Below are positions 490 through 18,120 of a stretch of DNA of 19,559 bases, piece after piece. The DNA is from Caldivirga sp. (lineage in GTDB: Archaea; Thermoproteota; Thermoprotei; Thermoproteales; Thermocladiaceae), in the NCBI GenBank assembly GCA_028275645.1, contig JAPWUH010000004.1, forward strand, positions 1 through 19,559, given 5' to 3'. The position numbers were made by a program, and so were the translations under genes. The notes under the pieces are model-generated. The model searched no databases. It was given only the letters and a program-made list of their open reading frames with translations, and was not told where the DNA came from. Within the stretch, counting starts at the first letter, position 1, and every line of letters starts with the position of its first letter.

Positions 490-894
490 TTAGGTGCTTA
501 TGCATTTCTTGATTCTTGCATGTAACTCCCTTGTGTTTGCTGTTGGGCAGGTTACTGCTATTATCGTTAGTTTACTTGTTAGTTTCTTAATCTCCTCCTT
601 AAGCTTAGCCATCCTGCCTGTTACGCTATTCACCTCCTCTAGGTTGGGTAGTACGTACTCTAGGTTAGCCATGAGTAACTTAGTTACTTGACTTATCCTC
701 AAGTCTCCGCGGCATATGGCCAGTAGCCTATTCTTGACGTTGCTTGAGTATCCTGTTAGGGCTGTTTTACCGTCACTGATTACATATACACCAGCGCCAA
801 CATCACTTATTGACGCGCAGTTCATTTCAAGTATGTTGTAGTTGCTGCAAATACCCTTAATGCACTCCTCAATCTTAGCCTTTAAGTCCTGCAT
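490..894 (-). CDS. hypothetical protein, 134 residues
   Basis: No family is recognised. The protein starts with a helix, then has a strand-turn-strand section around residues 25-50 (VYVISDGKTALTGY), a helical middle and a charged, coiled-coil-like stretch near residues 88-107, ending in a short Cys-containing tail. It has no signal peptide or membrane segment. It lies 45 bases downstream of the TGT-like gene on the same strand, so it may be the last gene of that operon. A TATA-like element (TAAATACTTA, duplicated at 921-944) sits about 30 bases before the ATG, so it may also have its own promoter. Its job is unknown; its place suggests an accessory subunit of the neighbouring TGT/ATPase module. 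Confidence 0.6.
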   Translation of the reverse strand: MQDLKAKIEECIKGICSNYNILEMNCASISDVGAGVYVISDGKTALTGYSSNVKNRLLAICRGDLRISQVTKLLMANLEYVLPNLEEVNSVTGRMAKLKEEIKKLTSKLTIIAVTCPTANTRELHARIKKCIST

Positions 895-920
895 TCACGG
901 TGTTAGTGCTTGGGGTCTAT

Positions 921-944
921 TAAGTATTTAGCTAAGTATTTAGC
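921..944 (-). repeat. tandem 12-bp repeat over a TATA-like element
   Basis: TAAGTATTTAGC occurs twice in perfect tandem (921-932 and 933-944, plus strand). On the minus strand each copy reads GCTAAATACTTA. The copy nearer the TGT-like gene supplies that gene's TAA stop, and the other lies about 30 bases before the ATG at 894, where an archaeal TATA box would be expected. It may be a promoter duplicated by slippage. Confidence 0.45.
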
Positions 945-1863
945 TGCCTAGGATTAATGCCTTATGCCTGGTGAGTACGTAGGCGTTGTAGAGCATCACT
1001 GACCTATTCTCCTCCTTAAGGGATTCTGCATTAAGTATCCTGCCTATTAGGAGGCTCTCAATACTGTCGTTTGTTGATTCTAGTCTCTCCTTAAGCATTG
1101 ATATCCCACTCATACTGTTAACCTTGACCCTAATAATGCCGTTGCCGCTTGGTATTAGGACCTCCTTCTTACCTGCCGCTATGGCTGGTGTACTCACATC
1201 GACGCTATCCACTAGGCTAGCCACCTTACGCAGCATGTTTAAGCTGCCAACCCCAAATAGGTGCAGGTGCACCCTACCACCAAGCACATCCCTAACAGCC
1301 CTCACCACGTTAATTATGAAGCTTGCGTCACCCTTATGAGGTACTAGGGAGCCTACACCAATGTACCTAGCCCCAAGGTCCCTGTAGTACTGAGCACATT
1401 TAACGTACGTGTCTAGGTTCCAGCCCTGTACAACAAGCATAACCTCCCTACCCAGGGACTCCCCAAACCTCAATGCAGCCTCGGCGTTAACTAAATTCCT
1501 ACCGAATAATTTGACCCTCACCTCATGATCCTTAACATGCAGTATTGGGTAATCCCTATGGACAAGTATATCCGAACCTAATACGTATTGAGTGTAAAGC
1601 ACCTGAGCCTGGCTTAGGTGGCTCACCTGCAAGCCCCCAACGGCGTGTAGCGGCTGTGTCATTGAGTCCACGATTAATGGCCCATTGTAACCGTAAAACC
1701 TCCTAAACCCCTCACTAAGCAGCCTAGTTAACATATGTACACCCCTATGCTGCCTCATATTCACTATAGACTTCATGGACACCACCAAGCCGTCAATGCT
1801 GAAGAAGTCCCAGTAATGCGGATCCTCAGGTTCAATGAACCAAGTCAGGTAAAGCCTCGGCAT
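940..1863 (-). CDS. divergent TGT-superfamily (DpdA-like) protein, 307 residues
   Basis: A TIM-barrel protein of the tRNA-guanine transglycosylase superfamily, possibly acting on DNA or tRNA guanine. Core landmarks align in order with bacterial Tgt: IVDS (Asp66, like the DSGG Asp), GGLQV at 76-80, LGSDILVHRDYP at 95-106 (like the DECTPYP strand), VVQG at 144-147 followed by LGARYIGVGSL at 163-173 (the usual GGL loop is GSL here), LFGVGSLNML near 202-211, and VDVSTPA at 221-227, where Asp222 occupies the position of the nucleophile. The CxCxxC...H zinc site of true Tgt is missing, and the protein is shorter than full enzymes. Its start lies two bases after the stop of the AAA+ gene, so the two are co-transcribed. 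It may be an active minimal enzyme or a partner of the DpdA-like protein at 3712. Superfamily membership is fairly sure; activity is not. Confidence 0.78.
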   Translation of the reverse strand: MPRLYLTWFIEPEDPHYWDFFSIDGLVVSMKSIVNMRQHRGVHMLTRLLSEGFRRFYGYNGPLIVDSMTQPLHAVGGLQVSHLSQAQVLYTQYVLGSDILVHRDYPILHVKDHEVRVKLFGRNLVNAEAALRFGESLGREVMLVVQGWNLDTYVKCAQYYRDLGARYIGVGSLVPHKGDASFIINVVRAVRDVLGGRVHLHLFGVGSLNMLRKVASLVDSVDVSTPAIAAGKKEVLIPSGNGIIRVKVNSMSGISMLKERLESTNDSIESLLIGRILNAESLKEENRSVMLYNAYVLTRHKALILGS

Positions 1864-1865
1864 AA

Positions 1866-2816
1866 TTACACGTGTCTTGAAAGCACTTCCTTAACGCCAT
1901 CAACGTTAACCTTACCGCCTAGGGACGTGTATATGAGTGAAATAGCCCTGACAATCTCCCCAGGGTTACCCTCAGTGTAGTCGTGTATGACCTTAACGAC
2001 ATTCTCGCTAATATCCATGTCAAGCCCCCTCCACTTAACAAGCTTACCAACAAACTCCAGCGACTCCTCGTAGGTGAAGGGCTTCAGGTAAATTACGAAT
2101 GACGAGAGCCTCCTGGCTAAGGCTGGGTACGTATTCACAACCTCATCCCAACCGGCGGGTGTTGAAGCCGCCAGTAGTAGGGTTTTACCAGGTAGGTTGT
2201 CAATCAGATTCCTAAGGAGACTTAGGTACTGCAGCTTTTTTACCTGCCCAATGGTAACCACGTCCTCTAATTCATCAATAAGTATGAGTATTGGGCCGTA
2301 ACCAGCCTTAACAACTGCATCACCAAGGTTCATCATGAACCTTAGGGCTAATTCATCATTAACCCTGGACCCAAGCCCATGCTTAAGCCTAAAGTTTTGA
2401 GGCGTTGGCTCACCCATAAGCCACTGCCTAGCGTAACCGCCGTCCTCACCACCACTTAATATAAGGGTTAAAGCCCCCCTTAAAGGATCCTCAAGGTGGG
2501 TGGCGACTTTACTCAACAGTTCACTGTCCCTTAGCATTAGGTTGATGAATGCCCTGTACAGGTTCATGAAGCTTGAGCCCGGTGTATTAACGTAAGTTAC
2601 CAAGGAGTCCCTGAAGTTAGCCTTAACCTGGCTAGCCACGTGGAGCATGATGTGGGTCTTGCCGAAGCCGTAATTGCCAATTATGACACCGGCCCCTGAT
2701 GGGCCCTTCGCTACGGTTTCCACATACCTCAGGAGTTCAGTCACGTTGCCATGTGGGTCGTAGAGGAATTTAGTATCCTCGTCACTGGGTATTGGTAGGA
2801 GTGTCCTCACATTCAA
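1866..2816 (-). CDS. AAA+ ATPase, ORC/BrxD-like
   Basis: A stand-alone AAA+ ATPase of 316 residues. Walker A is GNYGFGKTH (47-55), Walker B is ILILIDELED (176-185, Asp181/Glu182), a sensor 1-like stretch LLLAASTP lies at 213-220, an arginine pair (235-236) fits a finger, and the lid contains EGNPGEIVRAI (282-292), as in Cdc6/ORC-like and DUF2791 (BrxD-type) ATPases. The GKTH variant of Walker A is shared with defence ATPases of the BREX BrxD kind. The start is a TTG overlapping the TGA of the winged-helix gene by four bases; a GTG two codons later is the alternative. Encoded between a winged-helix-like protein and a TGT-like protein, it probably drives or licenses base exchange on DNA, perhaps filling the place of the missing DpdB. 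That role is inference. Confidence 0.8.
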   Translation of the reverse strand: MNVRTLLPIPSDEDTKFLYDPHGNVTELLRYVETVAKGPSGAGVIIGNYGFGKTHIMLHVASQVKANFRDSLVTYVNTPGSSFMNLYRAFINLMLRDSELLSKVATHLEDPLRGALTLILSGGEDGGYARQWLMGEPTPQNFRLKHGLGSRVNDELALRFMMNLGDAVVKAGYGPILILIDELEDVVTIGQVKKLQYLSLLRNLIDNLPGKTLLLAASTPAGWDEVVNTYPALARRLSSFVIYLKPFTYEESLEFVGKLVKWRGLDMDISENVVKVIHDYTEGNPGEIVRAISLIYTSLGGKVNVDGVKEVLSRHV

Positions 2817-3469
2817 ACACCCAAGCTAATCATGATGTAGACGTACCTCTTACCAAAAACCTCCACTGAACCCTTGGTGGCGCCTGGGGCTCCGGTCAAC
2901 ACAACCTTATTCCTCCATCTTCTAACGAACTCCTCAAAAAACCTACCCATGAGCCTACTGGGCACGTATAGCTCGCTCTTAACCTCGTTAAGCAATTGCT
3001 GTATCGGAACATACCTACTCCATCTTCTCCTACTCAGTAGCCTGTACTTCTCAAGTAAAACGCTCTCAAACCTGCTGTAAAATTCCTCATTAACCACAGG
3101 ACCCTTACTAACTCCCTCCACCTCGCTTATGAGTCTCAATGCCAAGTCAACTATGACTGCGTTATAGCCAGTTAACTTAATTATGTCACTGGGCTTAGTA
3201 ACACCCTTAGCCATGAGCTCGTAAACCCTCCTATATGGTTCAAGGCTACTTACAAATATTTCATGCAAAGCCTCAGAGTCACCATTACTCACAGCGTTAA
3301 GAAACTCCAACCCCCTCTCCGTAACCGTGTAATTGGAGTCGCCGCTTATGAAGCCGAGGTCAATGGCGACGCTCAACAATTCCCTGAACCTAGGGTCGTT
3401 AACCGGCGCCGCACCTGACTTAACAGTATTCATGAATTCGTATAGTGAGTTAAGCGTGAAGGGTCTCAT
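2813..3469 (-). CDS. winged-helix-like protein, 218 residues
   Basis: First gene of the minus-strand operon. Two helix-turn-helix-like sections are visible: residues 1-55, where helices are followed by the strand-like SNYTVTERGLEFLNAV seen in winged helices, and residues 77-115, where MAKGVTKPSDIIKLTGYNAVIVDLALRLI looks like a transcription-factor-type HTH. The C-terminal half is Arg-rich (LLSRRRWSRYVP, RRWRNKVVLTG) and could bind nucleic acid. It overlaps the ATPase gene by four bases, so the two products are probably made together. It could be the DNA-binding subunit of the ATPase, a regulator of the divergent promoter, or both. DpdG of bacterial systems is a possible counterpart by position only. 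No specific family is claimed. Confidence 0.65.
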   Translation of the reverse strand: MRPFTLNSLYEFMNTVKSGAAPVNDPRFRELLSVAIDLGFISGDSNYTVTERGLEFLNAVSNGDSEALHEIFVSSLEPYRRVYELMAKGVTKPSDIIKLTGYNAVIVDLALRLISEVEGVSKGPVVNEEFYSRFESVLLEKYRLLSRRRWSRYVPIQQLLNEVKSELYVPSRLMGRFFEEFVRRWRNKVVLTGAPGATKGSVEVFGKRYVYIMISLGV

Positions 3470-3493
3470 ACACTGGACCTGGCCTGGGTAGGT

Positions 3494-3506
3494 TCCTTTT
3501 AAATTT
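3494..3506 (-). promoter_or_regulatory. TATA box of the wHTH-ATPase-TGT operon
   Basis: On the minus strand this reads AATTTAAAAGGAA, a good archaeal TATA box centred about 31 bases before the ATG at 3469. It predicts transcription starting within a few bases of the start codon, that is, an almost leaderless mRNA. Confidence 0.6.
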
Positions 3507-3656
3507 TGCCTGATAAGTGTGATAAATATAGTAAATTGTTAATTAGGCCTGTTCATATCAATATTACTGTAAACTCAAAATCCTCAATTACATCACTAGG
3601 GATTCACTAGTATTACTTACCTATTTTAACGCCTAAAGTATGGGTCATATGTGATC

Positions 3657-3682
3657 ATTGTTAAAAATTATTGTTAAAAATG
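3657..3682 (+). promoter_or_regulatory. tandem TATA-like repeat before the dpdA-like gene
   Basis: Two copies of ATTGTTAAAAATT (13-base period; the second copy ends in G instead of T) lie just before the dpdA-like gene. The TTAAAAAT of the second copy is centred about 34 bases before the ATG at 3712 and is the best TATA candidate. The first copy could be a second promoter or half of a regulator site. The rest of the 242-base divergent region (3470-3711) is AT-rich and shows no open reading frame. Confidence 0.5.
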
Positions 3683-3711
3683 GTGTAATATTAAACTAAA
3701 TTGAAGAGCTG

Positions 3712-5550
3712 ATGAAGGGTTTGAAGCTGATACTGCCTGATTGGGATGACATTGTTGACGCTAACTACGACTTCGTTAATGAGAAGCACTCTGAGGGTTA
3801 CCTGAAAGGTAGGTACATGCATGGTGCTAGGATTTGGGATCTACTGGGTGATGAAGTCATAGATGGCGTCTTAATCTCAATATCGGCAATTAAGCGGGAC
3901 AAAATGAAGAAAATACTCGGTGCAGGGGGAGCCAGAAACTTCCTAAGGCTTCCAGGTAAAATGCAACTGATCGGTGACTGTGGAGCCTGGCAGTATAGGG
4001 ATAAGGATGCGCCACCCTATAGGGTTGATGAGGTGATGGATTACTACAGTAGGCTGGGTGTTGACTATGGGGTTACACTGGATCACATACCCTTCTTCGG
4101 CAACCCCCAAGAGAGAATGGAATTAACGTTCAGGAATGCGGTGGAGATGTATAAACTATGGAGGAGTGGCAACTATAAGTTCACCCTAATGGCCAGTGTA
4201 CAGGGTATTGAAGTTGACCACTACGTGAAGTTCATGGATAAGCTGTATAATGTAGGTTACAGGCACTTTGCAATAGGAGGCCTCGCTAAGAGGAACACTG
4301 GTTTCATTAAGGCCCTGGTTAGTGCGCTAACCGAGTACGTTAGGGGGAGGAGTGATGTGGAGAAGGTGCACTTCCTCGGCGTCACTAGGTTATCAATAAT
4401 CCCCATGCTAAGTGAATTACTGAACCACGTTAATGAGGTATCCTTCGACAGCTCAGCAATGCTTAGAATGGCGTGGACTAGGGAGGTGGGTAACTACCTA
4501 ACCACCAACGGTAAGGCATATACTGCCATTAGGGTGATTGGCGATAACCACGACGTCCTAAATGCTCTAAGGCTTTACGATAAGGGTGCATTAAGCCTTG
4601 AGGAAGTCATTGCAACATTGAGAAATTACCTAACCAAGGTTGGCCAGGTACATTACCTACCCTATTACGAGGCGCTGCTGAGGGATACGCCGTGGAAGAA
4701 GTGCAGCTGTGCCATATGCCGAACCGTGGGTATTGACGTGGTGATTTTTAGGGGTAATGATAGGAATAGGAGGAGGGGGTTCCACAATGTCTACGTCTTC
4801 AAGAGATTACTTGAATCAGGAAAGGATATAAGATTCATCAACGTGAAGGTGAACCACTCAATTAATGGTGATGAGGTAGCGAGTGATGAGTTAACCACCC
4901 TGCTTAAGAAGGCTTCAAGAGTCCTCATAATTACGAATTGCACTGATGAGAAGAACGTGGACTGGAATGATGTTTTAAACCTGCTTAGGAGCCGTGGACT
5001 TAAGGTACCTTCCTTCGACATCGAACTTGAGGATACGTATAGGGAAGTGCTTAGGCAGTTCATGAAGCCGGCTAGTGAGATGTATGGTGGCTCCTTTAGG
5101 GCTATTAGGAACCTGGCTAAGGCCTTTAGGAGACTGGGTAAGCAGGTGGACGTGTACGTGATAAGTGCTAGGTATGGGTTAATAAGTGAACGTGAGGTAA
5201 TATTACCATATAATGCGACACTTAAGGGGCTTGATATTGATGCCATTAGGAATTGGTCTAAGAGACTAGGCTTAGAGAAGAGACTTATGGAACTAGTGGG
5301 GAAGCCGTATGACGTTATTATCATTGCGTTACCGCGGGAGTACGCTATAGCCATGGGTTATGCTTTAAGGAGGTTGCTTAACATGGATAATGCAATACTC
5401 ATACTGCCGAAGTTCATAATTGAGGATGTTAAGGACATTAAGGCTAAGGTGATGCTGGCTGGAGGCTTGACAGCAAGGCTTAAGTACATTAAGCGCTTAA
5501 CCAAGGCACTAAGCAGCACAGGGGTAACCCTTGATAAGTGGCTCCTTTAA
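3712..5550 (+). CDS. dpdA: DpdA-type TGT paralog with YaaA/DUF6884-like C-terminus
   Basis: Predicted to exchange guanine in DNA for a 7-deazaguanine (preQ0 or a derivative), as DpdA does. The N-terminus (LILPDWDDIVDANYDF) and GDCGAWQY at 88-95 followed by APPYRVDEVMDYY (100-112) are DpdA-like. Asp89 replaces the DSGG Asp of Tgt; LDHIP (123-127), VQGIE (163-167), GGLA (189-192) and FDSS (245-248, Asp246 as nucleophile) follow in the Tgt order. A zinc site CSCAIC...H (Cys331, 333, 336, His358) leads into IFRGNDRNRRRGFHN. Residues 404-590 form an added domain with TNCTDEKN and ISARYGLISE...LPYNATLKG, resembling YaaA/DUF6884 proteins, which makes it longer than a plain DpdA. It is divergent from the second TGT operon and convergent with the PLD gene; the two stop codons abut. 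It is less likely to be the host archaeosine TGT, because no PUA domain is visible. Confidence 0.85.
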   Translation: MKGLKLILPDWDDIVDANYDFVNEKHSEGYLKGRYMHGARIWDLLGDEVIDGVLISISAIKRDKMKKILGAGGARNFLRLPGKMQLIGDCGAWQYRDKDAPPYRVDEVMDYYSRLGVDYGVTLDHIPFFGNPQERMELTFRNAVEMYKLWRSGNYKFTLMASVQGIEVDHYVKFMDKLYNVGYRHFAIGGLAKRNTGFIKALVSALTEYVRGRSDVEKVHFLGVTRLSIIPMLSELLNHVNEVSFDSSAMLRMAWTREVGNYLTTNGKAYTAIRVIGDNHDVLNALRLYDKGALSLEEVIATLRNYLTKVGQVHYLPYYEALLRDTPWKKCSCAICRTVGIDVVIFRGNDRNRRRGFHNVYVFKRLLESGKDIRFINVKVNHSINGDEVASDELTTLLKKASRVLIITNCTDEKNVDWNDVLNLLRSRGLKVPSFDIELEDTYREVLRQFMKPASEMYGGSFRAIRNLAKAFRRLGKQVDVYVISARYGLISEREVILPYNATLKGLDIDAIRNWSKRLGLEKRLMELVGKPYDVIIIALPREYAIAMGYALRRLLNMDNAILILPKFIIEDVKDIKAKVMLAGGLTARLKYIKRLTKALSSTGVTLDKWLL

Positions 5551-6303
5551 CTAGGAGAGGGTATTTATTAAGTCCTCAAGCACCGCGATGACGTCCATTA
5601 CACTACCCACTGCCCTAGGCAGCAATCCCCTGAACCTGCTAAGCATGTTCATGAACCTACCTTCACATTCACTAAACCCCCTAGCAGCGTTTAAGTAACC
5701 CTTGGTGATGTTCAGCAGTTCTCCGTAACCTGTTTCACTGCTTTTGATTGCTATAAGGCATTCCCAGTTAGCCCAATTAGAACTGTCAATAATGCCGCTT
5801 TTAGTGAAGTTAGCTGAGCCAACCAAGGCATGCTTATCGTTAATGTAAAGCTTCGTGTGAAGTCTTCTGCCTAAATCCCCAATCCCCAAGTCAAATAGAA
5901 GGTTGTCACCAAGAACCTCACTTAACCTAAGCATGGCCTCAATGCCACCAAGCAAATCCTCCAGTTGGGACTTAATGAAACCTTTAACCTCATCATCAAC
6001 GCTCCCCCTATTAACAATTTTACCGGCTAAGTCAAGTACATCAAACCTGAGCGCATCGTCGAAGCACCTGGTTAGTACTTTAACTTCAACACCCTTGTTA
6101 ATAATAGCCTCAATAATATCGAGGACCCTGGTTGAGGAGACCCAAGGGTAGTGTATGAATGGTCTACTGAACTCGAAGTTCGTTACCCAGGGGGATATTA
6201 TGTACATGAAACTACTGTTGAAGGATTCATGAAGGAATCCTCTAATTAAATCCTCGATACTACGCCCCGCGGTTAAGTTATCACGACCCCTACACGCAAT
6301 CAC
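5551..6303 (-). CDS. dpdK: single-HKD phospholipase D family nuclease (DpdK/DrmC-like)
   Basis: A PLD-superfamily protein of about 250 residues with one catalytic motif, HTKLYIND followed by VGSANFT (His152, Lys154, Asp159 and GSxN at 165-168 when numbered from the upstream GTG at 6312). With only one HKD it should act as a dimer, as small PLD nucleases do. The N-terminal half has the usual strand-helix units (FMYIISPWV, VEVKVLTR). It is the last gene of the five-gene operon. The start is set at GTG 6303 because it overlaps the TGA of the upstream gene as GTGA; a longer start at 6312 is possible. DpdK of Dpd and DrmC of DISARM are PLD proteins encoded next to a helicase, and this gene has the same neighbours. 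Expected role: cutting or degrading unmodified invading DNA (inference). Confidence 0.82.
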   Translation of the reverse strand: MIACRGRDNLTAGRSIEDLIRGFLHESFNSSFMYIISPWVTNFEFSRPFIHYPWVSSTRVLDIIEAIINKGVEVKVLTRCFDDALRFDVLDLAGKIVNRGSVDDEVKGFIKSQLEDLLGGIEAMLRLSEVLGDNLLFDLGIGDLGRRLHTKLYINDKHALVGSANFTKSGIIDSSNWANWECLIAIKSSETGYGELLNITKGYLNAARGFSECEGRFMNMLSRFRGLLPRAVGSVMDVIAVLEDLINTLS

Positions 6304-8891
6304 CCACCACACCCCAGGCTGTATGCCCTCCCCCGGAACTCAACAATGGCACCGTTACTGTAGGCTAGTTCACCGTCAGGTGCCTTACCTACCTTCTCAA
6401 TAATCATGGATGCAAGTATCTTAAGCAGTCTCCTATCCAGGGTCCTGGCCTGTATGAATGGTGCACCAAACCTACCACAAGACCTAGAGTTAACGTAGCA
6501 CATGCCACAAGCCCCATTGCAGGATAATAATGCCAAGTGTGTTAGTACTGAGGTGATTACTTTACGCAGCAATACAAGTGATGATATAACTCCCTCGCAA
6601 TTATCAATGCTTTGGTTACTCCGACTTCTTCTCTGCATTAGGCAGTCAAGTATGTACTTCTGAGTATTCCTCACGGCACCGCTTACAGCTAATGTTTCAA
6701 GCATCGAAGATACATCATCTATGAAACGTTCCTCGGAGTTTTCAGCCCCATAAAGGTTCCGCAAAACGTTAGTTAAATTACGCTGGCTCAGTGCCCTCCT
6801 GAGCAATACACGTATTAATTTCCGTAATGTTGGGTACTTACTAATGACCATCACTGTGTAGATGATGAGTTCATCAAAGTCAGGGAACCTCCTATACTTC
6901 CGCTCAAAATCGTATCTAATACTGTGTATTTCCCAAAGAATATTGAAAGCACTCTCGCCGATTAATTTCCCTATTCTAGTTGCCTCTTCAAACACCGAGA
7001 GCCACTGTTTAACGGTTTCCTTAAGTTCATCAGGAGTCACTATTATGCCTAAATCATCAGCCACCTGCTTAAAGAGCCTTGTTAACTCCTTTATTGGCTT
7101 AATGTCATCTTTCATTACTCCACTTAGCTCATTCTCTCTCTTAACAATGGCAAAGTGTATTAAGTCTTCAGGAGTACCAATGAGGCACTTACCTAATGAG
7201 AGTAATAAGTCCTCAACTAACGTCTCACCGTTTTTCCAGATATCTAGTATGTATTCGCCTTCACGCATAACCCCTATACCGCCTGAGTCCTTCTCCACGA
7301 TTTCAATGGGATCCTTCGATAACTCTTCATACTGCTCCAAAAATTTACCAGCCATAACTCCACCCCTGGTGCTCATTGTCCTTATAAGATGGTGACTGAA
7401 GGTATGTTTTACTAAATCGAAAATTGCACCAAATTTCCAATCATTATTCCAAACTTTTTTGTACTTATTCAGTATGTTTTGTAATCTATCACTTACCTTC
7501 TGTAGTAGGTTACTATCATTTACTTCACCACCCATGAATAACGTAATGAGCTTATAATTTCTCCTCAGCTTACTCATGAAATACCTGAGAAGAAGCGCTA
7601 GATTATCATTATTGTAATTATTAATGAAGTTTCGAACAATATCGATTATGGGTTTTGCATTGTCAACATTATATATCAGCTCAGTTATATTAACACTACT
7701 TCTAAGCTCGTGATGTAGGAATGCTAATTTTATGAGATCAGCAGTCTTCACGCTACCCATCAATTCAAAATAGTAAACAATGGGCAAGTCACTGGTAAGT
7801 ATATGCCTTAGTGAATTTACTAATGCCGTATTAATGCTAAGTTCGTAGTAACTCGGTTCAAGTTTCCTAGATCTATCATCATTTATCCTCCTCATAATGC
7901 GTTCGAATTGCTCCTGAATTATTCGACTATCATTAAGGTTTATCTCTAGAACCCTTGTATTATTAATCTTATACCCAATGGTAACTGGATCCCATAAACC
8001 ATCCTTAACACTTCTTATAAGAACCTTAACAAAGTTATTAAAATATCTACGTCCTTGTGCCTCTACGCATCTGCACCTAGAATCAGACCCCTCAATAGTA
8101 TCGGCAACAATGCAGTGACCCTGTTTTTCCTCATTCCTTTCTTTACAGAAAGGTCCCTTAATATTTGCATTTACATCAATTGCATATATACCAAAGTAAA
8201 CATCTGAGTTTTTGTAAAGTCTTATACCTTCATCTCTTATAATTTCCCTAAGAGGACCGCACGGTATCTTTAATGAAAGCACAGGCAATTTTGTTTGAAA
8301 TTGATAAATAAAGAATCTTGGGAATGAGTTACTTAAATCTAAGTAAGTATAAAATTTATACTTCTTCGATATTTCATCACAAGTAAAATTATGCCTTACA
8401 TGCGGGTAAAATAACCACCTATGAAATAGCCTCCTATGTTCCTCATCGTATTCTCTACATTCGAATGACTTAATATGTATAGAGTCTATGGTTCTTGCAT
8501 CGACGTGCCCCTTTCTAAGTATTTCTTTGACTACGTATTGATATTCATCAGGCAATGTAAGTCCAGCCTGTTCAGTCTTAGATAGTTCAATATGTATTGG
8601 TTCTCCACTAAAACTATAGTAGCCATTAATGTCAGTAATAATAGGTTTCACATCCTTGCTTAAAGATGGAGGTGATGTAAGTGGTATAAATAACCCTGTT
8701 CTCTCCCTGTAAGTTGGTTTCCCTGGTAAATATCCCGCAGCTGAGATGACTAAGGATGGGTCTTCGGCTATGAAGTCTCTCTTCCCTTCACGGTAAATAC
8801 GTATCTGCGGCAGTTTAGCCTCAGCAAAGAGGTTCTCAGGTATGTAGCGCCTAAGTATTTCTAGTCTTTGTAGAACAAACCTACCACTCAT
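6300..8891 (-). CDS. large Cys-cluster protein, DUF1998/DrmB-like
   Basis: A protein of 863 residues. Near the C-terminus it has CNGACGMCYVNSRSC followed by ARTLDRRLLKIL (about residues 791-823). This resembles the zinc-binding end of DUF1998 proteins such as DrmB and of many helicase C-termini (CxxxCxxC, then LDR). A second cysteine group (Cys249, 260, 273, 275) could hold another metal. The long middle is helical, with no P-loop or nuclease motif that I can see. The start is placed at ATG 8891 because it overlaps the TGA of the helicase gene as ATGA and follows GGAAGGTGGG; an ATG seven codons earlier is less likely. In Dpd systems the helicase DpdJ is one long protein; here helicase and Cys-cluster parts are separate, as in DrmA-DrmB of DISARM. 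It probably forms a complex with the helicase. Confidence 0.7.
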   Translation of the reverse strand: MSGRFVLQRLEILRRYIPENLFAEAKLPQIRIYREGKRDFIAEDPSLVISAAGYLPGKPTYRERTGLFIPLTSPPSLSKDVKPIITDINGYYSFSGEPIHIELSKTEQAGLTLPDEYQYVVKEILRKGHVDARTIDSIHIKSFECREYDEEHRRLFHRWLFYPHVRHNFTCDEISKKYKFYTYLDLSNSFPRFFIYQFQTKLPVLSLKIPCGPLREIIRDEGIRLYKNSDVYFGIYAIDVNANIKGPFCKERNEEKQGHCIVADTIEGSDSRCRCVEAQGRRYFNNFVKVLIRSVKDGLWDPVTIGYKINNTRVLEINLNDSRIIQEQFERIMRRINDDRSRKLEPSYYELSINTALVNSLRHILTSDLPIVYYFELMGSVKTADLIKLAFLHHELRSSVNITELIYNVDNAKPIIDIVRNFINNYNNDNLALLLRYFMSKLRRNYKLITLFMGGEVNDSNLLQKVSDRLQNILNKYKKVWNNDWKFGAIFDLVKHTFSHHLIRTMSTRGGVMAGKFLEQYEELSKDPIEIVEKDSGGIGVMREGEYILDIWKNGETLVEDLLLSLGKCLIGTPEDLIHFAIVKRENELSGVMKDDIKPIKELTRLFKQVADDLGIIVTPDELKETVKQWLSVFEEATRIGKLIGESAFNILWEIHSIRYDFERKYRRFPDFDELIIYTVMVISKYPTLRKLIRVLLRRALSQRNLTNVLRNLYGAENSEERFIDDVSSMLETLAVSGAVRNTQKYILDCLMQRRSRSNQSIDNCEGVISSLVLLRKVITSVLTHLALLSCNGACGMCYVNSRSCGRFGAPFIQARTLDRRLLKILASMIIEKVGKAPDGELAYSNGAIVEFRGRAYSLGCGG

Positions 8892-11827
8892 GGCTTCCCA
8901 CCTTCCTCGCAATGAGAGTATAATTCATTGCCTATGTCCTCAGTATGCCTTCTTATATCCTCTTTAGTAATTGATTCCAATTCCTTGAAAACGCCGTAAA
9001 CGTAATCCATAAAATCATCACTTGGTGACTTCAATAATTCAATTATTGAGCACTCATATTTGAATCCACCATTACTACTAAGGTTGTGATGCTTATGCGT
9101 GTCATGATGCTTAAGGATGTAGTATTCAACAGCTAATTCAGCTATTGTCTGTTTAATAAGCTCCTCACTATCTATAGGTAAGTAAAGCATATCGTAGTTA
9201 AGTGCATCCCTGAGACTCTTAACCCTAGTGAATAGTTCAAAAAGCCATGCTTGGTGAGGTAACTCATGGGATAGCTGTATACCCACGACAGCCCTCATTA
9301 ATGGGTTCTCATACATCCTCCTACCACCCCTACCAGCCCTCTGAATCAGTGATGCAATATTGAGCGGAGCACCATGCTGATATATTAAAACCACGTCTGA
9401 GTAATCAACCCCAACCTCAAGTGAACTGGTTGATGTTACCAGAGTGGCATTCCTAATATCATCACGTTCACGGCTTGAGAACGTTGCAACATTGTTGAAT
9501 AACGTGGTCGTGGCATTTCTTGGACTATTAACTATGGTGTCGAGCATGTAACTCCACCATAATTCCCCATCCTCCCATGCCTTAGTTGATACTACGTGGC
9601 TAATTTTACCACTCCTAATATTAACTATGTCATTTTCATCATCACCATACTCATTCGTGAACTTATCACTCCGTGGATTTCTAAGGTCTTGAAGCCCAAA
9701 TTCCCCTCCAGATTCTTCCCTAGATCCCTCTCGCTTAATTGCATCCGCTAAATCATGTCTCATCCTCCTTAATGTATTTAATTCGTCGACAAAAACAATG
9801 GCCTTCTTCCTCCAAGTGCCATCAGTATTGTAGATTGATGGCATGTTGTAGAATATATCCATAATAGTCTGTATGGAAACGGCTATGTTATTAACCGCCG
9901 AGATAGTTGTAGGTACCACTATGAAGAAGTACTCATTACCGAGTGGTATTGTCTCATCTTTATCAACGGTGATTACGTAATCGTTTACATTATCCTCTCT
10001 TATTTTTCCTGAAAATAACCTACCTAGAAAATCCGCAATCTTAGGTATGGTTGCGCTCATCCCAATAACTAACGTGCCTAATTTACCAGCCCCTTTCCGG
10101 CTCTGATTATACCATATCCTATTGAGAATCCTTCTTAGGACATAGGCATACCTAACTCCAGCTACATCTACGTACGTATGCACCTCATCAAGCACAATGA
10201 TTAATGGGGAATCCCATACCTGCCTATTTTCTATCCTCCTAGTAACACCAAATAACCATTCATTACTTGTGCTAAGTAAATAGTTTAAACGTAATGTTTC
10301 AAGTAATGCTAGGTGAACATCACCAGATTCTTCACTAACTTTACCTTTGGTGAGAGCCACAAAGTCGATACTCTCCTTTCTATTGGCAATCCCACATAAA
10401 ATAGCGTCGTCATATATCGTTAATTTACCATCACTCTTTACAATTTTGAACATTGGGTATGAACCGTCTGGACATTGGATGGATCTTAACTCAACATAGC
10501 ATTCATCATTATGCTTTTTAACATACACGGGAACCTCATACTTAAGCATTAACTTTAGTTCTTCCCTCTTTCCCTTGCAAACCTCATCAACTCTCCCTCT
10601 ACTCCTATTCAATTCATGCTCATAATCCCTCTTAGGCCTAACATCTGTATAATCTATTGTTAAACGTATTTCTTTAATCCCTCTTCTTTTAAGCTCATCA
10701 TTGAGGTAATAAATATACCTTATTAACCTAGTTACCTGATCATTAGCCAGGGCTCTCCTTGGATACACTATTAAACCCACGGGTGAGTTCTTACTGCTCT
10801 GTGCACTCAAGTTTGTTAGGATAATTTTCCTCGCCAACGCCGTTAGTAGTATTGTGAGCACCATTATCTCAGTCTTACCACTACCTGTTGGTGCCTCAAT
10901 GACTAAATAATCCGGTTCACTACTATCAATACGTTGAATCAACTTCTCAAAAGCTCTCCTAATTCCCCTTATTTGGAACCTATAGAGACGTAATCCGCTA
11001 AAGACTCTCTTGAGGAAACTACATACGATATCCCAATACTCGCTCCATAGCGAATCAACATTACCTATATTATTATCCCCGGCGAAGTAACTATAGTACT
11101 TTGTGAAGAATGCATGTAGTTGTCTCTTTAGGGAGCAATCCCCATTATCACTACACACATTATCAATACTGCAAAAGCCGAGGGGTAACTCACGTGGATG
11201 TGCATAGGCGAAAACCCTTGACGTTAATAGAGGTGACTCAAATACTGAGGTGTCTGGGAACCTCTGTTTAAGGTTATAGAGGTCGCGGGTGATCTCTATG
11301 AACCTGCTCCTAACCTTAAACTCTGCACTACTGCTTAACAACTTAACGCACTTAGGGATAAGTTCACTAGCCTCCATGCAGGCCTTATTGCGATCATCTT
11401 TATCCTTTATCTCCAAGTCAGGTAACTTGCTAATATCATCAACATTAATTAGTAGGTATCTGCTTATGCAGTCGTCGTATATGCCCCTTAGATATAGGTA
11501 ACATATAGATTTCTCAATAATGTGGCTATCGCTTAGGATTTTTCTCAACTCCTCAGTAATGCTTTCATTTAACTCTCTGCCTCTACAGGCTATTGAAAAT
11601 CTGTCCAAGTAATCCAATATTTGATTTATCATCTTATCGCGTTCATTATTATCAATCCTAACCCATTCACCATACTGCATACCCAAGGCTAGGTCCTGCT
11701 CCTTTTCCTCAATGTATGATAAAACAGCATTAACTACATACTTATCCAGGAACTCCCCATCCTTACCACAGTCTTTGAAGAGCCTTTCAACTTCACTAGG
11801 CCACTTAATGCCTAGCAGACCACTCAT
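8888..11827 (-). CDS. dpdJ: superfamily 2 DEVH helicase (DpdJ/DrmA-like)
   Basis: ATP-driven SF2 DNA or RNA helicase/translocase of 979 residues. Motifs from the chosen start: RLYRFQIRGI upstream of motif I (about 280-289), motif I APTGSGKTE (312-320), Ia VYPRRALANDQ (355-365), II LDEVHTY (546-552), III MSATIPK (590-596), V TSTSSLEVGVDYSDV (798-812) and VI QRAGRGGRR (829-837). About 300 residues of mostly helical sequence precede the motor, including a Cys-x5-Cys-x5-Cys group near 219-231. The start is moved to ATG 11827 because it gives TAATG overlap with the upstream stop and follows GGTGA at a proper distance; an ATG 13 codons earlier is the alternative. Its neighbours (ATPase, helical protein, DUF1998-like protein, PLD) match the DpdH-I-J-K order and the DrmA-B-C core of DISARM. 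Likely role: moving along or unwinding DNA to recognise or present unmodified DNA to the nuclease. Confidence 0.85.
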   Translation of the reverse strand: MSGLLGIKWPSEVERLFKDCGKDGEFLDKYVVNAVLSYIEEKEQDLALGMQYGEWVRIDNNERDKMINQILDYLDRFSIACRGRELNESITEELRKILSDSHIIEKSICYLYLRGIYDDCISRYLLINVDDISKLPDLEIKDKDDRNKACMEASELIPKCVKLLSSSAEFKVRSRFIEITRDLYNLKQRFPDTSVFESPLLTSRVFAYAHPRELPLGFCSIDNVCSDNGDCSLKRQLHAFFTKYYSYFAGDNNIGNVDSLWSEYWDIVCSFLKRVFSGLRLYRFQIRGIRRAFEKLIQRIDSSEPDYLVIEAPTGSGKTEIMVLTILLTALARKIILTNLSAQSSKNSPVGLIVYPRRALANDQVTRLIRYIYYLNDELKRRGIKEIRLTIDYTDVRPKRDYEHELNRSRGRVDEVCKGKREELKLMLKYEVPVYVKKHNDECYVELRSIQCPDGSYPMFKIVKSDGKLTIYDDAILCGIANRKESIDFVALTKGKVSEESGDVHLALLETLRLNYLLSTSNEWLFGVTRRIENRQVWDSPLIIVLDEVHTYVDVAGVRYAYVLRRILNRIWYNQSRKGAGKLGTLVIGMSATIPKIADFLGRLFSGKIREDNVNDYVITVDKDETIPLGNEYFFIVVPTTISAVNNIAVSIQTIMDIFYNMPSIYNTDGTWRKKAIVFVDELNTLRRMRHDLADAIKREGSREESGGEFGLQDLRNPRSDKFTNEYGDDENDIVNIRSGKISHVVSTKAWEDGELWWSYMLDTIVNSPRNATTTLFNNVATFSSRERDDIRNATLVTSTSSLEVGVDYSDVVLIYQHGAPLNIASLIQRAGRGGRRMYENPLMRAVVGIQLSHELPHQAWLFELFTRVKSLRDALNYDMLYLPIDSEELIKQTIAELAVEYYILKHHDTHKHHNLSSNGGFKYECSIIELLKSPSDDFMDYVYGVFKELESITKEDIRRHTEDIGNELYSHCEEGGKP

Positions 11828-13137
11828 TATAGCTTCACCACGCAGGGTAATATACCCCTCCTGCATAATTTAATGAATATTTTAAATTCCTCATCACTTA
11901 ATACACCGCTCTCATTAAGCTGCTTGAAGTTAACCTCACCGCTGAATTTTTCGAAAATCTTAATTAATACGTTAATCTCTTTATCACCTGCGCCGCTTAA
12001 TTCCCTGAACCTTATGATGCTATCATTGATAGTTTTATCCAAGTTCTCCATATAATGTACAATACCGCTACACGTATCTACAGCAACTTTGACATCCTTA
12101 ACACTACCGCTAAGTACTCCACTAATTTTATTAATACATGCATTAATTTTTTCAATATAAACATTATTATTGTTATTGTTTGAATTTAACCTATTGTTAA
12201 TGTAATCAAGTAAACGTTTTATAGAATCAATATGGGATTCCATAGAGTTAATTTTTTCACCGATATCTTCATGAAGCATTTCATAAATATCTTTAATGCC
12301 ATGGAGGCAATCCTCTTGCCCACTTATTCCGTTCACCTTATTCAACGCATCTTTAACGCTATTTCTAATGTTCTGGAGGTCACTTAGCAAATCCATAATT
12401 AAGGATGTTTTCAACCCCTTACCATCTACCTTACCTATCTCGTCGCTTACCATTCTAAGGACATTAACTATCTTTAGTTTGTCCTCTACATTACTTAACT
12501 CATCCATTATATTCAGTGGGTTGTTGCAGAAGTTCCTAGTAACTATGTGTAGGATACAGGTGCTTACCAAATCACCATTAATTCCCATACTGCCTAAGGT
12601 GCTTTTAAGGGTAGTAACATGCTGGGTAATGTTACTGAGACTGCTTAATGAGTCGCCAATTTGCATTTTCTCTAGGAGCTGGCAGTCATTTTTAAGACAC
12701 TCACCCGCATATTCCCTAATCCAAATGCTTAGGTCATCATTCTTATCATTAATCTTGCTTATCAGTTGCTTGTAATTACCGTAATACTTATTAAAAAAAT
12801 TCTCAATGAACTCGTCCACTGCACCACACCCCTCTATATTCACGTCCCTATCCAGTACCTTACTTAATACTACTGATAACACGTATGTTATATCTGACTT
12901 AAATGCCTCAATCAATGCTCTTAGTGATGACTCTAGGCCGCTTGGATCGAGTTTATTAAGGTCAATTGCCGTGGACTTGATTTTATCAGGCTTAATCGTA
13001 ATGCTAGATTTACGTAAGGTATCTATCATAGTTTTCAAGATGGAGTACCTTTTCTCAACATCATTCAATAGATTAATTATCCTGTTACCACTGCTGGCTA
13101 TACTATTTGCATATTCCCAGGTCTTCGTCATGCTCAT
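11827..13137 (-). CDS. helical coiled-coil protein (positional DpdI equivalent)
   Basis: A 436-residue protein with no recognised domain. Nearly all of it is predicted helical, with repeated heptad-like Leu/Ile/Val spacing (for example residues 210-270 and 285-318) and an asparagine run at 318-325 that separates two helical parts. It has several cysteines but no clustered metal site, and no membrane segment. It overlaps the ATPase gene by four bases (ATGA) and the helicase start by one, so it is made in step with both. It sits where DpdI lies in bacterial Dpd clusters, but I cannot show homology. The elongated helical shape and position suggest a scaffold or linker between the large ATPase and the helicase. 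Confidence 0.65.
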   Translation of the reverse strand: MSMTKTWEYANSIASSGNRIINLLNDVEKRYSILKTMIDTLRKSSITIKPDKIKSTAIDLNKLDPSGLESSLRALIEAFKSDITYVLSVVLSKVLDRDVNIEGCGAVDEFIENFFNKYYGNYKQLISKINDKNDDLSIWIREYAGECLKNDCQLLEKMQIGDSLSSLSNITQHVTTLKSTLGSMGINGDLVSTCILHIVTRNFCNNPLNIMDELSNVEDKLKIVNVLRMVSDEIGKVDGKGLKTSLIMDLLSDLQNIRNSVKDALNKVNGISGQEDCLHGIKDIYEMLHEDIGEKINSMESHIDSIKRLLDYINNRLNSNNNNNNVYIEKINACINKISGVLSGSVKDVKVAVDTCSGIVHYMENLDKTINDSIIRFRELSGAGDKEINVLIKIFEKFSGEVNFKQLNESGVLSDEEFKIFIKLCRRGILPCVVKL

Positions 13138-16100
13138 CCCCCTATAGCCCTTTTAAGGTTCTCAATCTCATTTCTTAAACTTCCTAGTTTGTTCATAACT
13201 TCCCGTTGTTTACCTAAAACCTCTATTAGGTAATCAATGTCCTTGTTCAGGTTCTCTAACCTACTTAAAAAATCACTGAAGCCTGCTGATTCCTTGAGAC
13301 TGGTTATAATGTCCTCACGTATTGCATTAATAGCCCCTGGATCATTGTTAAGTTCAGAACTAATAATCTTTTCATTAATTTCATTCAATTTACGCATTAA
13401 TTCATTTACACTATTCATCACTACATTAAACATCCCCTCTTCTGTATCCTCTCCTGTAAGCACATCGTTGATATTAGTAATTACGCCACCAATTAATTTA
13501 TTAATCATGAACTCAAGGATAAGTAGCTTCTCGTAGTAACCTGTGTTCTGAAGGTAGGGTACAATTTCAAGGTTTTTCCTCAACTCCTCGCATGATGCAC
13601 CGTTGAAAATGCCGTTATTTAATTCCATAAGCTTACTTCTAAGTTTCTCAAGCCCTTTCATTAATTCATCTACATTATTTATGAAACCTACCTGCACGGC
13701 TTCACTATCATTAATGTATTTACTGATTTCATTCCTAAGTTCCTCAAGTTTACCCCTCATCCTACCTAGTACATTAGTTACATTATTTAGTGTAGTCACT
13801 ATGTTGCACGTTTCCTCCACCACGCTCTCCATATATTCGGGTATTTCATTTTCAATTTCTTGAAGCGTATACCATGTTAACATGTACCTAAGGGCTTCGT
13901 GATCCATATTTACAATAGTGTCGATCTTATTATATACCTTGTTAATTAAGTTTCTTAGGTCAATGCTTTTGCCCTTATTGCTTTGAATATTCATACTTGC
14001 TATTGATATTAAATCCTTAAGCGCCTCTTTGAATGGCCTATTATTTGGATCATTAATGATATCGTTAATATTAGTCCAAGCGGTATGTAGACTCTCGAAA
14101 TACTTACTGTTCCTCATCAGGCTATTAATTAGACTGGCGTTTGAGAGTATTGAATCAACTTTCTTCCCTAATAGCTTATATGAAATGCCGTTTTCACCGA
14201 AAATCTTCTCAAAGTCCTCGTTAAGTTCATTTAATTGACTAGCAAATTCCTTTAAGTAGTCCCATAATACTTCACTGTTTTTAGAGGGTTCGATTAACCA
14301 AATGTACCTAGCATTTGCCTCACCAATTGAGTGGTCTTCCTCAACTAGGTAACTGAGTACTTCCTTAATTATGTCATTGGCCTTAATGTACTCATTTACG
14401 TTTAATGTTTTCACTTTTCTGGCGTATTCATCGGTAATCCTGTAGATGGTGCTTGCGTATTGGCTTACCAGGTTCCTTTCATTTCTATCTAATTTAGAAC
14501 ATTCATTTAACATGTTATAAAACATGCTTATGAGGAATAATGTTGCCTTATCACCAAGATACGGTACATGAACAATCCCAACATCTATGAAATGCCTCCA
14601 CCTCTCCCTTAACCTATTAATTATGTTATCTATACCTTCCTTTAGCGGTATTGGAATTAATATAACCCCTTTTACTCCCTCTCTAGTTAATAGGTTTTGT
14701 AAAATTATTGTCTTAAGCTTATCATTATCGACGTGAGTGCTTGGTACAAATACGATCATTAAATTCTTAGTGGCATCACTACTTGAATCCACCTTTAATA
14801 TTTCATATTTAATGTGATTCATTAATTCCTCACTTACATCTAAAATATATTGCTCGTTGTATTTGCTGAACTTCTGGTAAAGAGACTCTATGAGATTATT
14901 AATTTGTATGTTTCTACTGCATCCAATTATTGGCATCAATATGATTGGTGGATATACGCGCTCTATTACTGAAGGCCTTAATGCGTAATGATATTCTGTA
15001 TCCTCCATTAACGACTGAGCCACATAGTTGCTGTAGACTGCATTAGGATCTAGACTATTGAATACGTCGTAGATTTCAGGTTTATAGAATTCAATGGATA
15101 TACCCTTAATGATTTCGAGTAAATCCTTAAGCGATTCTTCATTAAGCGCAACATACTCATGGTTACTCCATGCTTGGATAATAATCCTTAATATGTCATC
15201 TGCGTAGGTATCAATATCTTTATCGAGATCTTTAATCGCCCTTTTAATGGCACTATGCAGGTCATCAACTTTAATAATTTTCCTTGACTTTACGAAGAAA
15301 TCCTCATTAAGCTTCTGGATCTTTAACCTGCTAAGTTCATCATCAGTAAGGAAGCTTTTCAATAGTGATTCAGGTACTTGGCCAATTAAGATTATTAAAG
15401 AGCTAAGTAGCTTACGGTGAAGGGGATCAGTAACGTTATTAAGTAATTCATCGAGCGCGTTAAGATCGACGTAAGGTACGTTTTCGGCAATCACGGCTCC
15501 CTTTAATGGGGTAAATAAATCACTGAGGCTAATCTTAGGGTTGCTGGAATTTATCACACTTGCTATTACATGGTTATTGATTGAGTTATACGTATTGATT
15601 AGCTTGTATACTTGGCCTATACGCCCCTTACCCATCCACCAGATTAAGTTCGCTAAGTACTTCCTTAATACATCATCTTTAATTACCTTGGATAATTTCT
15701 CAGATAATTCTAATGGGTATACTAGTGGTATGGTGTAAGTCTTGGTGCGCCAGGTCCCTGCCGCTGAAACTGTCTCGGCATATATTGATGAGGGACCGAA
15801 GGCAAGTATTGGAAATACCCATGATTTACCTTCATAAACCTTATCGAATAATCCCCTAAATGGTGTTGTAGTATAGCTGATAAGATTCCTAAGCTCCTCA
15901 TATTGCTCCTCTATCTCATCAATAAGCAGTACGCATTTTGAGTGCTCTTTAATGTACCTCTCTAGGACTCTAACCACTTCCTCACGGTTAACACAGCAGT
16001 GTTCAAACTCCCCCCACTCCTCAGCATCATTGGACTTAATAACTTTGTTAATTACATGTCCGCAGAACATTGATGCGTAACCAGGTAATTGATCCTCAGG

Positions 16101-16445: not shown

Positions 16446-17276
16446 TTAGGTGTGTGTTTGTTTATGCCCCCTCTTGGGTTTGCGGATTTCGAAGCCGCTA
16501 TCAGTCTGCACCACCATTACCCTCCTCCATAACTCATCCTCATCGTAAATGCCCTTTAACTCTTCAATCCACCAATCCAGCATTGCCTTATCAGTGTCAG
16601 GGTTGTAGTCCTTGACTAAGCTGTGGGTGTTCCACATCTTATGCGTGATGTCGTATGTGCCATCGTAATTATCGTAAATAGTCACCTTACCAACAACGTA
16701 GGCAACCCACACACTACCATTCTCTGGTGGGGTTACTAGGGTCACCTCATAGGCTACCAAGTCTTCATCACCGCTGAAGTCACCGTAGTCACAGAACCAG
16801 CCACTGGAGCTAAGGGCACTACATTCTTTACCGAGGTGGTTTAGGAAGCCCTTGTAGCTATTTAGTAGGTTTTTCATAGAGCCATAAACCTTATCCATAA
16901 CATCATCACTGCTTAAATTACCAGCCTTCAGGGTTATTGACTCGGATTCAGGGCTGTAATCCACGTCTAAACCCCTCGCCTTAAGTTCACCGGCCATGCC
17001 CGCTAGGAAGCCGTTAATGAAGTTGTCGTAGGGTTTAAACATGCTTGTTAATGCATTGTCAAGCTTATCACTGCCCGTTGGCATAATCTCATAAACAAAG
17101 GTTCGATACCTAACCATCCACTGCTTGGGCATACAATAAATGCCTTTACTGCAGGTAAATAAAGTTTTCTTTCCCCTCGTAGCGCATTGCAAATCCTTAG
17201 AATAACCTCTGAGTACTAGGTTAATTGCTAATAGTGGAACCTGGTACATCAAGGATAGTAAACCGTCAGCGCGCAC
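16446..17276 (-). CDS. hypothetical protein, about 276 residues
   Basis: No family is recognised. The N-terminus has a hydrophobic stretch (LLSLMYQVPLLAINLVL) too interrupted to be a clear membrane anchor, then several cysteines within about 25 residues (LQC, FTC, YCM). The middle is helical and the C-terminal third has beta strands (VWVAYVVGKVTIYDNYDGTYDITHKMW), ending in a basic His-containing tail. The frame is open to a TTG at 17288, but a TATA-like ATTTAAGG at 17294-17301 is too close to that codon. GTG 17276 fits a leaderless start better, and ATG 17249 remains possible. It lies just upstream of the DpdH-like gene on the same strand, but that gene has its own promoter, so a joint function is uncertain. 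It could be island cargo or a system-specific accessory protein. Confidence 0.55.
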   Translation of the reverse strand: MRADGLLSLMYQVPLLAINLVLRGYSKDLQCATRGKKTLFTCSKGIYCMPKQWMVRYRTFVYEIMPTGSDKLDNALTSMFKPYDNFINGFLAGMAGELKARGLDVDYSPESESITLKAGNLSSDDVMDKVYGSMKNLLNSYKGFLNHLGKECSALSSSGWFCDYGDFSGDEDLVAYEVTLVTPPENGSVWVAYVVGKVTIYDNYDGTYDITHKMWNTHSLVKDYNPDTDKAMLDWWIEELKGIYDEDELWRRVMVVQTDSGFEIRKPKRGHKQTHT

Positions 17277-17293
17277 AAGTAGGGACAATGATA

Positions 17294-18071: not shown

Positions 18072-18120
18072 TGATGCATCACCTATCATGGGCTTATTAA
18101 GCATTACGTAACAGCAAAAA

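Follow-up and report, generated by a model that had tools for sequence, protein, structure and literature searches.

A Dpd-like locus of a Thermoproteota archaeon in which a second TGT-fold protein and a BrxD-type ATPase may stand in for DpdB

The contig JAPWUH010000004.1 of Caldivirga sp., analyzed over its whole length and referred to here as the window, is 19.6 kb long and belongs, as C146, to a Thermoproteota genome that is ~68% complete. It carries a gene for DpdA, which diverges from an operon (3469–940, minus strand) encoding a winged helix-turn-helix-like (wHTH) protein, a BrxD-like AAA+ ATPase, and a short second protein of the tRNA-guanine transglycosylase (TGT) superfamily, termed TGT2; these three are referred to as the trio. 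All 13 window genes were scanned, with the contig ending at both sides of the window. A first-pass annotation had described DpdA and the trio in this arrangement, which was confirmed, but had overlooked a DUF6884 domain fused to DpdA and a flank of DpdK- and DpdJ-like genes. Judged from its genes, the locus is Dpd-like and not of a wholly unknown type, because DpdJ- and DpdK-like genes are present.

TGT2 (940–1863, minus strand) is a protein of 307 amino acids whose TGT fold is supported by a Pfam TGT match above cut-off and by a fold match of the predicted structure, contrary to the possibility raised in the first-pass annotation that the short protein might fail to match this fold. The mouse heterodimer 7ovs turned up in the fold comparison. 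Residues Asp66, Asp104, and Asp222 align with Asp89, Asp124, and Asp246 of the window DpdA and are invariant in all 31 aligned sequences (alignment A5, with the fragment P0026 left out); they are of the catalytic type, going by the roles of their counterparts in the Zymomonas mobilis TGT. As previously noted, the protein has no zinc site, and no CxCxxC motif occurs in the five close Thermoproteota copies. This loss is less telling than it first appeared, because the archaeosine TGT (arcTGT) of the same genome (L001, G000:C125:727–1701) also lacks CxCxxC, as does L018 from a genome of the same order. The motif is present in P0028 and P0029 and in the second TGTs of the Thermoproteota genome G249, haloarchaea, Paenibacillus, and Deinococcus. 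The window clade has furthermore lost the DSGG(F/Y)Q-type loop, which reads DSMTQ, whereas haloarchaeal second TGTs retain both loop and zinc motif. The proposition that zinc loss makes TGT2 a dead pseudoenzyme was rejected in view of the retained aspartates and the equally motif-less arcTGT. At least 27 close homologues were found in the protein database, where the best 7997 candidates by word sharing were scored, and a scan of genome contigs with the short TGT gave three loci. A viral origin is unsupported; among viral contigs, none could be confirmed as encoding a short-TGT relative.

The trio ATPase (1866–2816, minus strand; 316 amino acids) belongs to the BrxC/BrxD family by its match to Pfam BrxC_BrxD, with a Walker A motif GNYGFGKT and a Walker B motif LILIDE, and reaches 38.5 bits against NCBIfam BrxD, below the 350-bit cut-off. 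It is homologous to the corresponding ATPase of haloarchaeal trios (hhalign 99.5%), and a PDB sequence search with it gave no match. The first trio gene (2813–3469, minus strand) encodes a probable DNA-binding, winged-helix-like protein of 218 amino acids, which is homologous to its haloarchaeal trio counterpart (hhalign 98.1%, E 6.9e-14) and has 27 close homologues in the protein database (alignment A7 took 24 of 31 matches). A fold search with its model returned 211 matches at E ≤ 10 and none at E ≤ 0.001, so that the winged helix is not proven; the best match, to subunits of the origin recognition complex (ORC; E 0.14), serves as a lead only. The genes for the wHTH-like protein and the ATPase overlap by 4 nt, and a gap of 2 nt separates the ATPase gene from that of TGT2. 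The operon ends with a gene for a 134-amino acid protein (490–894, minus strand), which has an orthologue in three of five trio loci and for which family searches gave nothing above cut-off.

An AT-rich divergent region of 242 bp (3470–3711, 31% GC) separates the trio from DpdA (3712–5550, plus strand), a protein of 612 amino acids with a C-terminal DpdC-type (DUF6884) domain. The DpdA assignment is unambiguous (NF041059, 278.3 bits against a cut-off of 200), the DUF6884 domain (PF21818) spans residues 452–520 (38.0 bits against a cut-off of 30), and the PADLOC DpdC model matches at 1.3e-11. The PDB entry 7ui4 is matched at 1.4e-71, and the putative zinc ligands Cys331, Cys333, Cys336, and His358 are invariant in five of five sequences (alignment A2). 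One phage record matches the window DpdA.

Conservation of the locus was assessed in a sample of 398 Thermoproteota genomes. Close orthologues of the short TGT (E < 1e-80) are found in five of these, including the source genome, and in all five the 870-amino acid protein of the facing operon (see below), DpdK, DpdA, wHTH, ATPase, and TGT2 are kept with a constant trio order; the N-terminal half of DpdJ is present in four, the fifth contig being cut. DpdA and the trio are divergent in the window, L033, and L034, whereas in L036 it lies on the trio strand immediately upstream of the trio, and in L037 on the same strand ~24 nt downstream of TGT2. These same-strand layouts speak more strongly for a shared function than the divergent one. 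A search with the window DpdA matched 18 genomes, of which six cover the TGT domain; the remaining 12 match the DUF6884 part only and were not counted as DpdA. All six DpdA loci contain TGT2, wHTH, and ATPase genes. In the sixth locus, that of G249, the trio is of haloarchaeal type and a QueC gene lies nearby; this locus also has a DpdJ of 1851 amino acids and a DpdH relative of 948 amino acids. The first-pass annotation had asked whether the trio would occur mostly apart from DpdA, and the close orthologues, five of five beside DpdA, indicate that it does not; the short-TGT search at 1e-5 missed the divergent second TGT of G249, and other divergent copies without DpdA could have escaped likewise. 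DpdB had been reported as unrecognizable in the window, which was extended to the six trio genomes: NF041060 gave no match at E ≤ 0.01 in G000, G086, G270, G355, G381, or G249, where G000 is ~68% complete and the listed completeness of G086, G381, and G249 is at least 95%.

The 12 genomes matching only the DpdC part of the window DpdA (G042, G079, G090, G097, G099, G105, G139, G145, G198, G312, G347, and G363) encode DUF6884-type open frames of 197–259 amino acids, with one of 436, and G355 and G381 have an extra DUF6884-type copy besides their own trio locus. Phage-type DpdA proteins of 294–297 amino acids occur at L038:8715–9599 (G125; phrog_887) and L040:8658–9551 (G256), in similar neighborhoods with open reading frames of ~535, 1020, 235, 364, and 631 amino acids.

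Searches of the same sample with the wHTH-like protein returned the same five genomes and one weak match, and those with the ATPase the same five strong matches and 12 weaker ones, G249 being among the latter. Of the 11 weaker-ATPase genomes outside known trio loci, four neighborhoods were inspected; the neighbors are a Csa1/Cas4-like nuclease (two cases), a C5 DNA methylase (one), and a protein without family match (one), with neither TGT2 nor DpdA recognized in these four. The ATPase, perhaps with its partner, thus looks like a portable module that the TGT links to DpdA. In G237 (L093:9132–12113) and G156 (L095:7669–10346), a BrxD-type ATPase is accompanied by a protein of ~300 amino acids and a Csa1/Cas4-like nuclease (PF06023). 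The C terminus of the ~300-amino acid protein is of wHTH type, at 92.1% against the G249 copy and lower against others, and the set is possibly an undescribed defense module.

The window DpdA also matched 36 plasmid records, 25 of them with a proper TGT domain. The 11 weak or partial records (H118–H128) were left out, one of which (Trichormus, L092) was inspected and has neither partner. Partners were counted with hidden Markov models (HMMs) at E ≤ 1e-4 within 12–20 kb, or less at record ends. Over the 25 records, a second TGT was found in 11, DpdB in 12, neither in two (Acetobacter and Methylorubrum), and both in none. When the second-TGT plasmid records are taken together with the six Thermoproteota loci and Deinococcus taeanensis, DpdB is found in none of 18 second-TGT loci; the Deinococcus locus, with a second TGT and a very divergent DpdA, was reached through its TGT and was not counted in the 25. 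Eight of the 25 are haloarchaeal, and all eight combine a DpdA, to which a DpdC-type domain is fused or adjacent, with, in order, a second TGT, a wHTH protein, and a BREX-type ATPase. In five of the eight, TGT2 comes directly after DpdA/DpdC in the gene list; genes for synthesis of 7-cyano-7-deazaguanine (preQ0) are annotated nearby in five, and two more have a queuosine-precursor transporter only. Second TGTs also occur in Paenibacillus, Nostoc NIES-3756, and Picosynechococcus, near a P-loop protein or between two helicases. Natronococcus, one of the 25, has its DpdA and ATPase in several frames, and its DpdA was not included in the trees; the locus of strain CG52 (L049:5403–11495) looks degraded, with DpdA/DpdC spread over three frames and the BREX-type ATPase over two.

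The most telling case for alternation of the two partners is found in cyanobacteria, where Nostoc and Picosynechococcus have a second TGT and Scytonema and Allocoleopsis have DpdB, with closely related DpdA proteins. This grouping into two pairs is seen in the DpdA tree, whereas in the TGT-fold tree Allocoleopsis joins Nostoc and Picosynechococcus. The DpdC fusion fails as a predictor of the second TGT, as Scytonema and Allocoleopsis have the fusion together with DpdB. The TGT-fold tree comprised 53 rows, including 15 second TGTs from loci (L049, L078, and L080 omitted) and four of 29 protein-search matches. DpdA forms one clade (98/96) and arcTGT another (100/100), whereas the second TGTs do not form a single clade; the best tree contains four second-TGT changes, and well supported branches make at least two of these unavoidable. 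That all second TGTs share one origin was not taken as the default, and the tree suggests that they were likely recruited separately, in a number blurred by the long branches of Deinococcus, Paenibacillus, and L039. On the DpdB side, two DpdB genes with unequal HMM scores flank DpdA in all nine alphaproteobacterial dpd loci with DpdB (L081–L086 and L089–L091), and no DpdB is found in the alphaproteobacterial loci L087 and L088.

Convergent with DpdA is an operon of five genes, with overlaps of 13, 25, 40, and 4 nt. The first in coordinate order (5551–6312, minus strand) encodes a DpdK-like nuclease of the phospholipase D family with one HKD motif at residue 152, matching PLDc_2 above cut-off, PADLOC DpdK at 1.9e-9, and the NCBIfam model at 32.5 bits against 100 (hhalign 92.0%). 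It is followed by the 870-amino acid protein (6300–8912, minus strand), the probable C-terminal half of a split DpdJ/YprA-type helicase, and by the N-terminal half of the helicase (8888–11866, minus strand; 992 amino acids), with the Walker A motif APTGSGKT and a DEVH motif. The N-terminal half is matched by PADLOC DpdJ at 2.7e-51, by hhalign at 99.9%, and by NF041067 at 144.5 bits, below the 800-bit cut-off for the full-length protein. The 870-amino acid protein aligns to residues 810–1611 of a cyanobacterial DpdJ profile built from two sequences (hhalign 98.2%, E 5.7e-14) and by BLASTP to residues 787–868 of Paenibacillus DpdJ (E 1e-4), and its four-cysteine cluster (Cys798, Cys802, Cys805, and Cys812) is invariant in five of five orthologues. 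DpdJ thus appears, by sequence comparison, to be split into two genes with its DUF1998-like cysteine cluster retained. Adjoining DpdJ is a coiled-coil-like protein of 436 amino acids (11827–13137, minus strand), and the final gene (13134–16397, minus strand) encodes an AAA+ ATPase of 1087 amino acids (PF00004 above cut-off) at the place that DpdH occupies in Enterobacter. This ATPase has an orthologue in L034, is not homologous to the protein of L036 (15579–18998), and its AAA region compares with the trio ATPase at 88.5% (hhalign). An unnamed Enterobacter gene was taken as DpdI by position alone, and no homology to DpdG was detected among the window proteins, with small alignments.

At the right contig end lies an archaeal tyrosine integrase (18121–19413; Phage_integrase 44.2 bits, Phage_integr_3 29.2), beside two open reading frames without assigned family (17376–18197 and 16446–17288); from the integrase, the locus may be on an integrated element. 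A promoter and terminator scan gave no excess over shuffles, the sigma-70 patterns used being bacterial ones, and a repeat scan gave nothing informative.

Bacterial Dpd systems are believed to label DNA by exchanging a base and to attack DNA that lacks the label. With a probability of roughly 60%, the window encodes a Dpd-like modification-restriction system that, in this Thermoproteota archaeon, operates without DpdB, with the ATPase and TGT2 as a module in its role. From the observed homology, fold, operon structure, and conserved linkage, we infer as the best reading that a second TGT plus ATPase replaced DpdB as the helper of DpdA. The first-pass annotation had proposed replacement of DpdB or DpdC; the former fits the absence of DpdB, and the latter does not hold, as a DpdC-type domain is fused to DpdA. 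In such a system, DpdA would replace DNA guanine by preQ0, made in the cell for tRNA archaeosine, and the fused DpdC-type domain would convert preQ0 to 7-amido-7-deazaguanine (ADG). The precursor should be available, because QueC matches are found in five of the six trio genomes (in the source genome on C98, outside the window). Powered by ATP, the wHTH-like protein and the BrxD-type ATPase would load DpdA and TGT2 onto the target DNA; the wHTH-like protein would grip the DNA, and TGT2 would pair with DpdA as the other TGT subunit. The facing operon, comprising split DpdJ, DpdK, the 1087-amino acid ATPase, and the 436-amino acid protein, would attack unmarked DNA. The trio ATPase is the best candidate for the job of DpdB because the ATPase activity of DpdB is described in PMC12839542 as what inserts preQ0. 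A tentative extension, which on present data we would sooner doubt than accept, is that different TGT lineages have repeatedly supplied a second TGT-fold subunit, which would join DpdA in a heteromeric DNA transglycosylase, loaded by ATP, where DpdB is missing. This would be a general DpdB alternative whose loader would be a portable wHTH and BrxD-type ATPase pair in archaea, with helicases or another P-loop protein alongside in bacteria, and in which TGT2 may act on the second strand or site.

Several observations weigh against substitution of DpdB within a Dpd-like system. The state of second TGT or DpdB changes only twice on the DpdA tree (31 rows), a sign test on that tree is not significant, and exclusion of one by the other is not statistically established because there are only one to two independent pairs; in addition, the HMMs used for the partner count were built partly from the same loci, and for two DpdA records no partner of either kind lies within 15 kb. 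The ATPase family is also found without any recognized TGT2, the P-loop protein beside the second TGT of Paenibacillus may be simply its DpdH, and TGT2 of the window clade, with its loop reduced, may bind the base unlike other TGTs. A QueC match is absent in G381, rated ~100% complete. The 870-amino acid protein is recognized by profile only against cyanobacterial DpdJ, giving 3.7% against Enterobacter/Paenibacillus and 1.5% against haloarchaeal DpdJ profiles. Using small alignments, the 1087-amino acid protein reaches at most 10.7% (hhalign) against three DpdH sets, and no homology was detected between the 436-amino acid protein and the Enterobacter gene in the same place. The BREX-Related Capture (BRC) system, as described in PMC12839542, is a precedent for a TGT sitting with BREX parts, for which other readings are possible. 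Chemistry, complex formation, the role of ATP, and defense are themselves deduced from sequence.

The trio could instead belong to the restriction half, where the wHTH-like protein and ATPase would sense foreign DNA and TGT2 would read modified or unmodified guanine and license DpdJ/DpdK. BREX-family ATPases with wHTH proteins are sensing parts of BREX-type systems according to PMC12839542, a similar pair of ATPase and ~300-amino acid protein occurs with the Csa1/Cas4-like nuclease of G237 and G156, part of the base-binding loop of TGT2 is lost, and the window trio shares the minus strand with the DpdJ/DpdK operon. This assignment is nevertheless unlikely given the position of TGT2 directly after DpdA/DpdC in most of the haloarchaeal plasmids and on the DpdA strand in L036 and L037, together with its alternation with DpdB, a modification protein. 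The trio might also stand on its own, for instance as a further RNA- or DNA-modifying unit, and only happen to lie in one defense island with DpdA. Such independence would account for the other partners of the ATPase family; it is quite improbable in light of the proximity of trio and DpdA in five of five close loci, G249, and eight of eight haloarchaeal records, the 2–4-nt gaps and overlaps inside the window trio, and the similar numbers of close homologues for the wHTH-like protein and TGT2.

We consider it very improbable that TGT2 is a DNA glycosylase that would excise guanine or the modified base and insert nothing in its place, so that abasic sites result, as happens in base-excision restriction. 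Base-excision restriction enzymes do exist (PMC10273834), and retention of fold and aspartates with loss of base-exchange loop and zinc site would suit such an activity; haloarchaeal second TGTs, however, keep loop and zinc motif, and the zinc motif is also retained in those of Paenibacillus and Deinococcus. To our knowledge, the TGT family offers no precedent for a glycosylase of this kind.

Collectively, the preferred assignment, in which TGT2 and the ATPase serve in place of DpdB, suggests that there is possibly more than one way to power 7-deazaguanine DNA marking. The apparent exchange of DpdB for a second TGT and a BREX-family ATPase provides a comparative handle, as features shared by the two kinds of partner would point to the needs of base insertion into duplex DNA. 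If true, the marking of DNA with 7-deazaguanines would also extend to hyperthermophilic archaea.

Dpd islands (dpdA–K) are described for bacteria in PMC11888242. Like them, the window combines DpdA, a DpdC-type domain, a DpdJ-type helicase, and a DpdK-like nuclease in a single locus, but it lacks DpdB, has the DpdC-type domain fused to the C terminus of DpdA and an apparently split DpdJ with its four-cysteine cluster kept, and adds a second TGT, a BrxD-type ATPase, and a wHTH-like protein; DpdD, DpdE, DpdF, DpdG, DpdH, and DpdI were not recognized among the window genes. The designation as an undescribed system, made in the first-pass annotation, does not hold in its strong sense, as the DpdJ- and DpdK-like genes make the locus Dpd-like and Dpd-like systems of haloarchaea are published as BRIGADE (PMC12458937), which is reported only from halophiles. 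The haloarchaeal plasmid loci sharing the trio are probably of the BRIGADE kind. BRIGADE loci usually encode a pair of YprA-like helicases, of which one or both are ARMADA-like, and carry 7-deazaguanine synthesis genes, whereas the window has one split DpdJ-type helicase and no such synthesis genes among its 13 proteins; the words TGT, transglycosylase, queuine, and Thermoproteota are absent from the main text of the BRIGADE paper.

BRC (PMC12839542) resembles the window in having a TGT and a BREX-family ATPase without DpdB, and its authors propose an NTPase instead of DpdB. It differs in its PglZ, DUF6079, DUF4007, and HerA/FtsK, none of which was recognized among the window proteins by Pfam or PADLOC, and in lacking DpdC, of which the window has a DpdC-type domain. 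With BREX, the trio ATPase shares the Pfam family BrxC_BrxD through BrxD, and no other BREX gene was recognized in the window; the PglZ, BrxC, and PglX set was not encountered, with PADLOC giving only weak matches of BrxD/BrxC to the trio ATPase and of BrxH to the DpdJ-type helicase. Neither the exchange of DpdB for a second TGT nor Dpd-like loci in Thermoproteota were found described in the searched literature, which did not cover the Dpd papers of 2016, 2018, and 2023. Dpd-like haloarchaeal systems are already known as BRIGADE, and the DpdB substitution and the Thermoproteota form are apparently new, although this is not proof of novelty.

The eukaryotic tRNA TGT, QTRT1/QTRT2, is heteromeric and provides a precedent for two unequal TGT-fold proteins acting as one enzyme; for DpdA and TGT2 of the window, the expected substrate is DNA and the complex is putative.

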